Origin: a virus
Virus record (IMG/VR): IMGVR_UViG_3300010883_019285
Location: 1 to 42,815 of that record
DNA length: 42,815 nucleotides
Strand: one strand, 5' to 3'
This document shows, piece after piece, positions 3,115 through 31,695 of this stretch. The notes beneath the pieces were generated by a model. That model saw nothing but the letters and a program-made list of their open reading frames with translations. It was not told where the DNA came from and searched no databases. Position numbers and translations under genes: made by a program. Position 1 is the first letter of the stretch, and every line of letters begins with the position of its first letter.

Positions 3115-3312
3115 ATGAGCACTAACCCAGTTATAGAAAAATGGCAAGAGCTAAAAGTACTAATCGAATCTGTTGATTTAGACGTACATAAGAACGCAAA
3201 CGGAAATGCATCTGCAGGAGTCAGAGCTAGAAAAGGGCTACGATTATTAAAATCTCAAGCCGCTGAACTAGTTAAGCTTACCGTAGCAATGGACAAAGCA
3301 AACAAAGCATAA
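3115..3312 (+). CDS. Small histone H1/Hc1-like DNA-binding protein
   Basis: ATG follows an excellent site (AGGAG at 3105-3109). The 65-residue product has the helical pattern of bacterial Hc1-like histone N-domains: an N-terminal helix (KWQELKVLIESVDLDV), a Gly/Asn/Ala turn, then the signature-like stretch AGVRARKGLRLLKSQAAELV and a Lys/Ala end. The closest memory is the RVRKGMQELK motif of Bacteroidetes and chlamydial H1-like proteins. Such proteins bind and compact DNA. It lacks the long Lys-Ala tail of Hc1, so it is a minimal form. It is the last gene before the terminator at 3363. The family call is moderate; the function is inferred from similarity only. Confidence 0.5.
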   Translation: MSTNPVIEKWQELKVLIESVDLDVHKNANGNASAGVRARKGLRLLKSQAAELVKLTVAMDKANKA

Positions 3313-3362
3313 ACAGAATATGCATGCCGTTAAATAAGAAGCAATAAGGTTCTTTCAAATAA

Positions 3363-3389
3363 AAAATGGGGATCTAAGATCCCCATTTT
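3363..3389. terminator. Bidirectional intrinsic terminator
   Basis: A perfect 12-bp stem, AAAATGGGGATC / GATCCCCATTTT, closes a TAA loop. The A-rich 5' and T-rich 3' flanks give a U tract in either direction. It lies between the + strand histone-like gene and the end of the minus-strand sigma-like gene, as expected for a shared terminator of convergent transcripts. Confidence 0.88.
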
Positions 3390-3414
3390 AAGTTAACAAA
3401 TATAATAATTGTGA

Positions 3415-3666
3415 TTACATAACTTTATATAATAACTCCCTAACTTTTTTAAGAGCTGACTTTTCAATTTGACATATGCGCATTCTAGTAAGACCATTTA
3501 AATCGCCGATTTCTTGTAAAGTTTTAGGTCCTCCTTGACTAGCTAGAATTATGCAATTGTTATGTTTTGAACATTCCATCCATTGCCGGCATTCTCGTTT
3601 TTCACAATTCTTATTTGCTTTTTCATGTTCTTTAAAACATGTTGTGTTTTTTAAAATTTTATCCAT
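3415..3666 (-). CDS. Small sigma-region-4 (HTH) transcription factor with N-terminal Cys cluster
   Basis: The only convincing minus-strand gene. GGAGG lies six to seven bases before the ATG on its strand. Residues about 48-80 match sigma-70 region 4: TLQEIGDLNGLTRMRICQIE has the -35-recognition helix-turn-helix and is followed by KSALKKVREL. The N-terminal part holds Cys21, Cys26, Cys32 and Cys38 with regular spacing, a probable zinc or iron-sulfur site. No region 2 is present, so it cannot be a full sigma factor. It may redirect host polymerase, act as an anti- or co-sigma, or bind DNA as a repressor. Divergent to phoH and convergent to the histone-like gene, it has its own transcription unit, which suits an early regulator. 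Confidence 0.75.
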   Translation of the reverse strand: MDKILKNTTCFKEHEKANKNCEKRECRQWMECSKHNNCIILASQGGPKTLQEIGDLNGLTRMRICQIEKSALKKVRELLYKVM

Positions 3667-3720
3667 TTTAAACCTCCAATATTAATTGTACCACTGCACT
3701 CTAACTTGTATGAGGATTTT

Positions 3721-5049
3721 ATGCAAAGAAAAATATTTGTAGTCGATACTAGCGTTATGCTTTACGACAAACTGGCAATTCATCAATTCACAGGGAATGA
3801 TATAGTGTTGCCACTATGCATTCTAGAAGAGTTAGATAAATTTAAAGGAAAGCAAGGTTTATTAGGAGAATCTGCTAGATATGTTAATCGATATCTAGAT
3901 TCGCTTCGAATTATTGAAAAGGATGAAGAAGGATGGACGGTAGACATAGATACGGATACTAGGTTTCGTTACGTAACTAAATCATTAAAGAGTTTAGTTC
4001 CGGAAGGCCTAGACGCAAACTACAACGATAATCAAATTATCGCATGCGCAAAATATCTGCAGGAAAAGCATCCGGAAAGCATAGTTTTAGTAATTACAAA
4101 AGATATTAATCTTAGAGTGAAATGCGACGCAGTTGGCGTTAACGCAGAAGATTACTATAAGGATCATATAGAAGATGTCGACAATCTTAAAGGGTACAAG
4201 GTTTATGCAGCAACAAGAGATGAAGTCAATTCTTTCTATTCTAAAGGCTCTTTAAATATAGATATCGACATTGAGCCAAACGGGTTTATTATTGGAAAAT
4301 GTGAATCACAATCATTTCTAGGGATAAACAAGCCAGACGGAATTAAAAAGCTAACTCATGAAATGGACGGGTTTATTAGCGTAACACCTAGAAATTCAGA
4401 ACAAAGTTTTGCTGTTGAGGCATTATTAGACCCAAATATTCCACTAGTTACTTTAACTGGGCTAGCTGGATCTGGAAAAACGTTTTTAGCTTTGATGGCT
4501 GGGCTTTATGGATTAAAAAATAAGTCTTTCACTTCAACAATAGGGTCTGCATTTCCGGAAGAGTTCAAATCTGGATACGAAAGATTAGTTATAACTAGAA
4601 CTCTTCAGCCTGTAGGAAGAGATTTAGGGTATTTGCCAGGCAGCATGGAAGATAAGATGCAACCATGGCTAATGCCTATCTTAGATAACGTACGCCATGC
4701 TTTTAAGGATATATCATACTTTCATACTATGGTAGAAAACGGTGAAATAGAGGTCGCGCCTATACCATATATTCGCGGTCGTACATTCAACAATTCATTT
4801 GTTATCGTTGATGAGGCACAAAACGCAACTATCCATGAGCTTAAAACTATCATAACAAGAATAGGACAAGGAGCCAAAATTGTGTTGTTAGGAGACATCG
4901 ATCAAATAGATACACCATATATTGATAGACAGTCTTCCGGATTGAGCATAGTTATAGACAGGTTTCGAAATTCAAATTTAGCTGCGCATATTAACCTAAG
5001 TAAAGGCCAGAGATCTGATCTTGCCTCTGCTGCAGGGTTAATATTATAG
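3721..5049 (+). CDS. phoH: PhoH family PIN-domain/ATPase protein (PhoH2-like)
   Basis: The start is ATG 3721, with GAGG at 3712-3715. An in-frame TTG at 3706 lies before that site and is rejected. An N-terminal PIN nuclease domain begins IFVVDTSVML (Asp9) and continues through acidic residues such as LEELDKFKG. The PhoH ATPase domain holds Walker A GLAGSGKT (247-254) and Walker B FVIVDEAQN (Asp364, Glu365), followed by GDIDQID. The two-domain form equals PhoH2, whose bacterial members act as ATP-dependent RNA helicase/ribonucleases. PhoH genes are common in marine phages. The N-terminal Asp suggests an active nuclease site. Expression is probably divergent from the minus-strand sigma-like gene across 3667-3720. 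Confidence 0.93.
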   Translation: MQRKIFVVDTSVMLYDKLAIHQFTGNDIVLPLCILEELDKFKGKQGLLGESARYVNRYLDSLRIIEKDEEGWTVDIDTDTRFRYVTKSLKSLVPEGLDANYNDNQIIACAKYLQEKHPESIVLVITKDINLRVKCDAVGVNAEDYYKDHIEDVDNLKGYKVYAATRDEVNSFYSKGSLNIDIDIEPNGFIIGKCESQSFLGINKPDGIKKLTHEMDGFISVTPRNSEQSFAVEALLDPNIPLVTLTGLAGSGKTFLALMAGLYGLKNKSFTSTIGSAFPEEFKSGYERLVITRTLQPVGRDLGYLPGSMEDKMQPWLMPILDNVRHAFKDISYFHTMVENGEIEVAPIPYIRGRTFNNSFVIVDEAQNATIHELKTIITRIGQGAKIVLLGDIDQIDTPYIDRQSSGLSIVIDRFRNSNLAAHINLSKGQRSDLASAAGLIL

Positions 5050-30681: not shown

Positions 30682-30977
30682 GTTATTTAATTCCTTGGGT
30701 TTTACTAGGAGTATGTTTTATTGCACTATTAATATCTTTACGGTATAATTATAAATTCGCAATAATAATTATAGAAGTAGAAGATTCTATGACCGAGTGC
30801 TTAGGTATATTAGATGATCAATATTCGAATATATCAAAAGTTTTAGAGATACCTATTTTCTTTGATTCACCACAGGTAAGACAGGTTATTGATAGTATGA
30901 AAGTGTGTAAGGATTCAATACTGTACGTTGCAAACAATATAGCGAAAATCGAAGAGGAACAAAGTGAAGAAGATTAA
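30678..30977 (+). CDS. Conserved phage membrane-anchored protein, 99 residues
   Basis: One N-terminal transmembrane segment (LIPWVLLGVCFIALLISL) with the remaining 75 residues helical and acidic (VEDSMTECLGILDDQYSNIS, then EIPIFFDSPQVRQVIDSMK). The C-terminal pattern is, from memory, conserved in marine T4-like phages without known function. It is ATGA-coupled to the glycosyltransferase and overlaps the late sigma gene, which marks the return to phage core genes. Confidence 0.65.
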   Translation: MSYLIPWVLLGVCFIALLISLRYNYKFAIIIIEVEDSMTECLGILDDQYSNISKVLEIPIFFDSPQVRQVIDSMKVCKDSILYVANNIAKIEEEQSEED

Positions 30978-31695
30978 AAAAATAAAAAAAATAAAAAGAC
31001 CGTCTTCAGGCAAAAAGCCTTATTTCACTAAAGACACCCAAGCAGCAATAAAAGAGTACGTTAATTCTACTGATGAAGATTTCAGGGCGGCTATATACGA
31101 AAAAGATATCCAACCGGCTCTTAATAAGCTTAGCGAGAACTTAATATTCGTATATGGTTTTCACAAGCAGCATCCGGATGTTAGTGTTCTTAAGCAGGAT
31201 TGCGTTATTAATTTGTACGAAAATTTACACAAATTCAATCATGATTTAGGAAAGAACGCATTTTCTTATTTTAACGTTGTCGCTAAAAACTGGTTAATAA
31301 TTCAGTCTAGAAGAAGAAAGAAGCGTACTGATAGGTTGGTATATATCGATGACACAAGTTTGTCTATAGCTGACAAGTATGCTGTAGAGGCATATCAGAT
31401 TGCACCTCCGCCTGGACATAATATAGTTCACAAAGAGAACGTTGAAGCAATGAAAGAATTGCTAAACGAGATTAAGAACAAAGCTAAAAACAATTCTGAA
31501 AAAAAGTGTATTGATGCAATATTGCAAGTTTTTGGAAACATAGATCAGTTAGATTATTTAAATAAAAGAGCAATATTCGTATATGTAAGAGAGATATCAG
31601 GGTTGAATTCAAAGCAATTATCTGTTTGTATGTCTTCTTTGCGGAAAATTTATAGGGACTTAGTAGGGCCAGATAAAAAATACGATATATTTTAG
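30964..31695 (+). CDS. gp55: T4 gp55-like sigma factor for late transcription
   Basis: GTG start six bases after GAGG (30954-30957), inside the end of the upstream gene. 243 residues with a Lys-rich head (KKIKKIKKIKRP). The sigma region-2-like part reads AALNKLSEN-like segments, then NLHKFNHDLGKNAFSYFNVV and AKNWLIIQSRRRKKR, which matches the FSYF...KN.LI pattern of gp55 in T4-like marine phages. A C-terminal helical extension (LNSKQLSVCMSSLRKIYRDL) looks like a weak HTH. gp55 redirects host RNA polymerase to late promoters (TATAAATA). It lies just before the baseplate genes it would switch on. Longer than T4 gp55 (about 185 residues). Confidence 0.8.
   Translation: MKKIKKIKKIKRPSSGKKPYFTKDTQAAIKEYVNSTDEDFRAAIYEKDIQPALNKLSENLIFVYGFHKQHPDVSVLKQDCVINLYENLHKFNHDLGKNAFSYFNVVAKNWLIIQSRRRKKRTDRLVYIDDTSLSIADKYAVEAYQIAPPPGHNIVHKENVEAMKELLNEIKNKAKNNSEKKCIDAILQVFGNIDQLDYLNKRAIFVYVREISGLNSKQLSVCMSSLRKIYRDLVGPDKKYDIF

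Follow-up and report, generated by a model that had tools for sequence, protein, structure and literature searches.

Background

Sigma factors are proteins that direct RNA polymerase to the starts of genes. Sigma factors divided between two proteins have already been described. In phage T4, gp55 and gp33 have been described as forming a split sigma, and gp33 recognises no DNA sequence (PMC2988020). In B. subtilis, SigO and RsoA divide a sigma between sigma4 and sigma2 (PMC8103513). A review (PMC7824862) reports minimal sigma factors with a single helix-turn-helix (HTH) in jumbo phages, and this small form was read by its authors as an ancestral remnant.

In the present study, we analysed a stretch of 42,815 nucleotides (hereafter, the window), which corresponds to positions 1 to 42,815 of the virus record IMGVR_UViG_3300010883_019285, together with related viral records. 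The window encodes a small protein, P0001, that contains a part of sigma region 4. Our results suggest that the sigma factor of a family of large, uncultured bacterial viruses is made as two separate pieces, and that P0001 is the one that would read the -35, upstream half of the promoter. As in T4, two phage proteins would share the sigma function on the host core RNA polymerase (PMC2988020, PMC7892883); however, gp33 has no sequence likeness to sigma, whereas P0001 is a true region 4.2. As in SigO-RsoA, the sigma domains lie on two proteins, but SigO-RsoA is cut between sigma2 and sigma4 (PMC8103513), and the phage sigma studied here is cut inside domain 4, between regions 4.1 and 4.2. Like the minimal sigma of jumbo phages, P0001 is a single sigma HTH made as a separate small protein by a large phage; unlike for P0001, the passages on these proteins in the review (PMC7824862) describe no cysteine site and no sigma that lacks the corresponding part. 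The open-access papers that we searched did not describe any sigma divided between 4.1 and 4.2, nor did they contain the cysteine site or the matching truncated sigma. Next to the known split sigmas T4 gp55/gp33 and SigO-RsoA, a cut inside domain 4 would be a new variant.

Methods

IMG/VR was scanned with four relatives of P0001, which gave 454 candidate stretches, possibly including ordinary sigma factors. The family counts rest on the best 80 loci of these 454 candidates, and the removal of duplicates left 68 distinct proteins. The scan patterns required an N-C pair or C, Q, or S at position 65; thus, the search itself favoured C38 and, in part, C65, but placed no demand on C10, C21, or C26.

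Promoters were searched for as TGTA[AC]A-N15-18-TAnnnT in the regions upstream of genes, and the counts were compared with those in dinucleotide shuffles.

Results and discussion

P0001 is a real gene with its own transcription unit

The features of the locus are listed in Table 1. The ATG start of P0001 lies behind a GGAGG ribosome site, and the translation is MDKILKNTTCFKEHEKANKNCEKRECRQWMECSKHNNCIILASQGGPKTLQEIGDLNGLTRMRICQIEKSALKKVRELLYKVM. Between pairs of family members, dN was 0.02-0.09 and dS ranged from 0.6 to saturated, with synonymous sites saturated against the closest relative; where dS was measurable, dN/dS was about 0.01-0.08. A PhoH homologue is divergent to the gene in 76, and an Hc1-like gene is convergent with it in 77, of the 80 viral loci (the best 80 of 454 candidates). 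Because dN/dS is low and the neighbours are kept in 76-77 of the 80 loci, the P0001 ORF is a real gene, and it is under strong purifying selection. It is the sole minus-strand gene of the window in a simple gene set. The original prediction that P0001 has a divergent transcription unit of its own is supported.

Table 1. Features of the P0001 locus and of the gp55-like gene in the window
Feature	Position	Strand	Basis
Hc1-like small protein, convergent neighbour	3115..3312	+	77/80 loci
Terminator hairpin, 3' end of P0001 gene	3363..3389	-	12 bp stem, -16.4 kcal/mol, z -3.4; terminator scan
P0001, 83-aa cysteine/sigma-region-4.2 protein	3415..3666	-	Sigma70 region 4; AlphaFold2 mean pLDDT 92.6
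HTH, sigma region 4.2, residues 46-77; recognition helix TRMRICQIEK	3436..3531	-	Pfam; model compared with 1ku7
N-terminal cysteine domain, residues 10-38 (invariant C10, C21, C26, C38; W29 or Tyr; N37)	3553..3639	-	Conservation over 68 distinct members
Candidate -10 element TACAAT, P0001 gene	3686..3691	-	Same element and same 16-nt spacer in the closest relative
Candidate -35 element CATACA (4/6 to TGTACA), 16 nt from -10	3708..3713	-	CGTACA in the closest relative
PhoH-like gene, divergent neighbour	3721..5049	+	76/80 loci
gp55-like late sigma (region-2 type)	30964..31695	+	Homologue in all 13 related records

Several other genes of the window were recognised. The Hc1-like protein matched the Pfam family of histone H1-like Hc1 (E=1.7e-8) and is strongly conserved, mostly at 53-87% identity. 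Positions 19-732 encode the C-terminal domain of the serine kinase PrkA (Pfam E=3.5e-70), here in a phage and near the P0001 homologue in 39 of the 80 loci, and positions 919-2130 encode a distant GroEL-like protein (PHROG chaperonin, E=8.6e-11) that is part of a conserved block. Sugar genes, namely those for a glycosyltransferase, a DegT aminotransferase, an epimerase, and a GDP-mannose dehydratase, are clustered at about 12.8-27.4 kb.

The C-terminal half of P0001 is sigma-70 region 4.2

The Pfam profile Sigma70_r4 (PF04545) matched residues 39-77 of P0001 with E=2.7e-10 and a score of 40 bits, against a curated cut-off of 24.1. The profile search proposed with the original prediction thus upheld its claim of a sigma-region-4 piece that keeps only the -35-binding HTH: the match to the region-4 profile is limited to positions 12-50 and region 2 is absent, so P0001 is not a complete sigma-70. 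In the AlphaFold2 model, built from 66 sequences, the HTH superposed on region 4 of Taq sigmaA bound to -35 DNA (1ku7) with an rmsd of 1.3 A over 38 columns, and a second comparison gave 0.9 A over 38 residues. The C-terminal half of P0001 is sigma-70 region 4.2. It is like that of primary sigma-70 (PF04545; PHROG_351) in the HTH, the QIEK signature, and the fold, and differs from it in being part of a stand-alone protein with a cysteine domain and in two residues of the recognition helix. These are M62 and C65, which align with E585 and R588, two DNA-reading residues, in E. coli sigma70 numbering. The exchanges E585M and R588C are present in 68/68 members, and R584 and Q589 are kept in the alignment. 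The two exchanges are compatible with, but do not prove, an altered -35 preference.

The N-terminal half is a conserved cysteine domain

P0001 has cysteines at positions 10, 21, 26, 32, 38, and 65. C10, C21, C26, C38, and C65 are each Cys in all 68 distinct family members, as are the residues N37, G54, R61, M62, R63, Q66, I67, E68, and K69 invariant; H14 is frequent (49/68). Position 32 is Cys in only 15/68, and we rejected C32 as a ligand. As C32 is not conserved, the conserved four-cysteine set is 10/21/26/38, with the spacing C-x10-C-x4-C-x11-C. The cluster had originally been placed at Cys21/26/32/38; three of these residues stand, and C10 belongs in the set instead of Cys32. The more general proposal, that promoter recognition is paired with a cysteine site, agrees with the Pfam match and the invariant set. 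From the conserved pattern of the residues, we infer that C10, C21, C26, and C38 hold zinc or possibly an Fe-S cluster.

For the cysteine domain that makes up the N-terminal half, no relative was recognised. Fold searches with this domain, modelled within the whole protein, gave no usable match, and no full-length relative of P0001 was found among 50,697 phage records. Candidates for stand-alone cellular relatives (L088, L092, L094, L098, and L100, from 17 loci of one genome_contigs scan) were full-length sigma factors. More distant short cysteine sigma-4 proteins occur in other viral contigs (L002-L005) with a similar-looking gene directly upstream; their recognition helix is without the M/C pair.

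Large relatives encode a sigma-70 that ends where P0001 begins

A search for region 4 in 12 large relatives gave one strong match in each, namely, the P0001 family protein, and in several of them a second, weak match to profile positions 1-18 only. The weak matches fall in sigma-70 proteins that contain regions 2 and 3, most of them region 1.2 as well, and that end after the region-4.1 motif RLRFG(I/L) and a short tail. Among the 80 best IMG/VR relatives of this truncated sigma, 78 stop at the same point after region 4.1, and the two isolate-genome records are full length with a normal region 4.2. In the truncated sigmas with a match to the motif, the tail is about 12-42 residues long. The flanks of the 78 truncated sigmas, about 3 kb in each direction, contained no region-4.2 pattern in any frame. 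In PHROG_351 columns, the truncated sigma ends at 695-697 and P0001 begins at 693. In Enterococcus phage PQ520365, the stretches homologous to the two halves abut to the base (3291-3956 and 3957-4052).

We examined eight relatives with a length of at least 250 kb (G001-G005, G016, G019, and G032); each encodes a second protein with the regions missing from P0001 and thus carries both halves. In seven of them, P0001 is the only clear region-4.2 match; the other, G019, has a second region-4.2-like HTH inside a 335-aa protein. Proteins of 335-358 aa with a region-4-like HTH (E from 1e-7 to 3e-6) were observed in G017-G020 and G031 (L309-L312 and L329), in several contigs about 10 kb from the truncated sigma. 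When 25 sigma-bearing contigs were searched, P0001 was present in four, the Hc1-like neighbour was present in the same four, and 20 had neither; G023 has the Hc1-like neighbour without P0001, 5.7 kb from the contig end. The absence of P0001 from smaller contigs nearly always goes with the absence of its neighbourhood. Because the contigs are fragments, we regard the co-occurrence of the two halves as consistency rather than strict linkage.

The truncated sigma lies outside the 43-kb window and is present in G001, the closest relative of the window; for this reason, the original prediction missed the partner. It had described P0001 as a fragment. Since the sigma-70 of the large relatives lacks exactly this region, a better description is that P0001 is the other half of a split sigma.

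Other candidate partners

A conserved protein of about 90 aa (MSMPKG...GYREIAE.MT..G..MNHS.ARN), which belongs to no known family, is encoded behind the truncated sigma, either immediately or with one gene in between (L123, 2120-2392, and 80 further viral loci, L225-L304). The sigma motif was found within 1.5 kb upstream of this HTH protein in 80/80 loci. We rejected it as the missing region 4.2: the profile link had a probability of 2%, the Pfam match was weak (E=0.22), and no PDB relative was found by sequence or by fold (model pLDDT 79). Positionally closer to the truncated sigma than P0001 is, it is a candidate for an alternative partner and, possibly, a third component of the transcription machinery.

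The gp55-like protein of the window gave a weak match when searched alone (PHROG_234, E=0.008), and a relative supported its identity (E=8.6e-6). Homologues were found in 13/13 related records searched, the window included; a gp55-like sigma is thus present in the same phage, as originally proposed. P0001 might then be the domain-4 partner of this late sigma, a gp33-like coactivator that has kept its DNA-reading helix and serves late transcription. The description of T4 gp55 and gp33 as a split sigma and the distant cysteine relatives in other viral contigs speak for such a role. However, T4 late transcription proceeds without upstream sequence recognition by gp33 (PMC2988020), P0001 complements the truncated sigma-70 and not gp55, and a TGTACA-type promoter tends to precede the P0001 gene itself (see below). 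T4-type late promoters (TATAAATA) were also not enriched in the window, where two were found against eight expected, fewer than by chance. No coactivator PHROG was listed for P0001 at E<=10, although the gp33 sequence family is very divergent. We consider this role unlikely.

Phage-type promoters

The pattern TGTA[AC]A-N15-18-TAnnnT was found in 16, 16, 14, and 7 upstream regions of G001, G002, G004, and G005, compared with 1.2, 1.3, 0.9, and 0.5 in the shuffles; together, these four genomes have 53 regions with promoters of the TGTAAA-N16-TATAAT class, where about 4 were expected. The best-scoring spacers peak at 16 (30/52). Of the hexamers located 16-18 nt before TAYAMT sites, TGTAAA was the most frequent (15/118) without being specified, and TTGACA pairs were at background level in the same four genomes. 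No TGTAAA promoters were found in the GC-rich G003 (59% GC), which has both halves. In G001, the genes behind such promoters include those for thymidine kinase, a gp32-like SSB, RecA, and DNA polymerase III alpha, and in G004 the operon of the truncated sigma lies directly behind one. Clustering along the genome was significant in G004 only (p=0.012; 0.16-0.62 in the others); therefore, we claim no early/late map.

Upstream of the P0001 family gene, a TGTACA/TGTAAA-like -35/-10 pair was found in 47/66 regions, compared with 20 (maximum 28) in the shuffles. The CATACA-N16-TACAAT of the window is below the scan threshold, and its place and spacing are as in the CGTACA-N16-TACAAT of the closest relative (L008).

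These sites also bear on the idea that P0001 is an ordinary small DNA-binding regulator, a repressor or activator that uses the sigma-4-like HTH alone, for example on palindromic TGTACA sites between P0001 and PhoH. A divergent position beside a conserved gene is typical of autoregulators, TGTACA is palindromic, and TGTA[AC]A occurs upstream of the P0001 family gene in 24/66 regions against 11. Yet the motif is part of a genome-wide -35/-10 pair with a preferred 16-nt spacer, and so use by a sigma fits better than an operator; moreover, if P0001 were a regulator, there would be no recognisable region 4.2 for the truncated sigma. We therefore judge such a regulator to be quite improbable.

Least probable of all, by a little, is a host-takeover factor that replaces or remodels the host sigma region 4 at the beta flap, like AsiA or WhiB: the four cysteines and the tie to sigma region 4 invite comparison with the WhiB Fe-S proteins, and the top Foldseek matches were sigma region 4/flap chimeras solved in WhiB complexes, but the confident part of those matches is the sigma-4 part (35 residues, 48% identity) and not WhiB, P0001 is itself region 4 and has neither C-x2-C-x5-C nor the G[VI]WGG (GVWGG) motif, and AsiA-like factors are not known to have an intact sigma recognition helix.

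A proposed two-piece sigma factor

We lean, if only slightly, towards P0001 as the metal-knuckle region-4.2 subunit that reads the -35 element in a two-piece phage sigma, with the partner and the metal as its inferred parts. P0001 would be a free-standing region 4.2, held together or extended by the C10/C21/C26/C38 metal site, and the cysteine domain probably substitutes for, or reinforces, the absent domain-4 helices around the metal. The other piece would be the sigma-70 protein with regions 1.2, 2, 3, and 4.1, which would bind the host core RNA polymerase and read the -10 element. No RNA polymerase beta subunit was matched in 10 records, and on this basis we rejected a phage-encoded multi-subunit enzyme; the host core is therefore used. 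P0001 would meet the truncated sigma, complete domain 4 near the beta flap, and read the phage-type -35 element, TGTAAA/TGTACA. A host sigma could also read TGTAAA, which counts against P0001 as the reader. The main uncertainty of the split-sigma reading is the partner, as gp55 is always present too and the 90-aa HTH protein is close to the truncated sigma in all 80 loci.

More tentatively, and in our opinion rather doubtfully, the split inside domain 4 may have a regulatory consequence: if a free region 4.2 that carries a metal site of its own docks on a truncated phage sigma, -35 specificity or holoenzyme activity would become separately controllable, possibly by sensing of metal or redox state.

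Conclusions

If the two-piece reading is true, a large group of uncultured phages has a natural sigma in which a protein of its own reads the -35 element, and the cut point between P0001 and the truncated sigma is one not described in the papers that we found. It would then become possible to test which parts of sigma domain 4 require a covalent link, and how these phages determine the choice of promoters by the host RNA polymerase.
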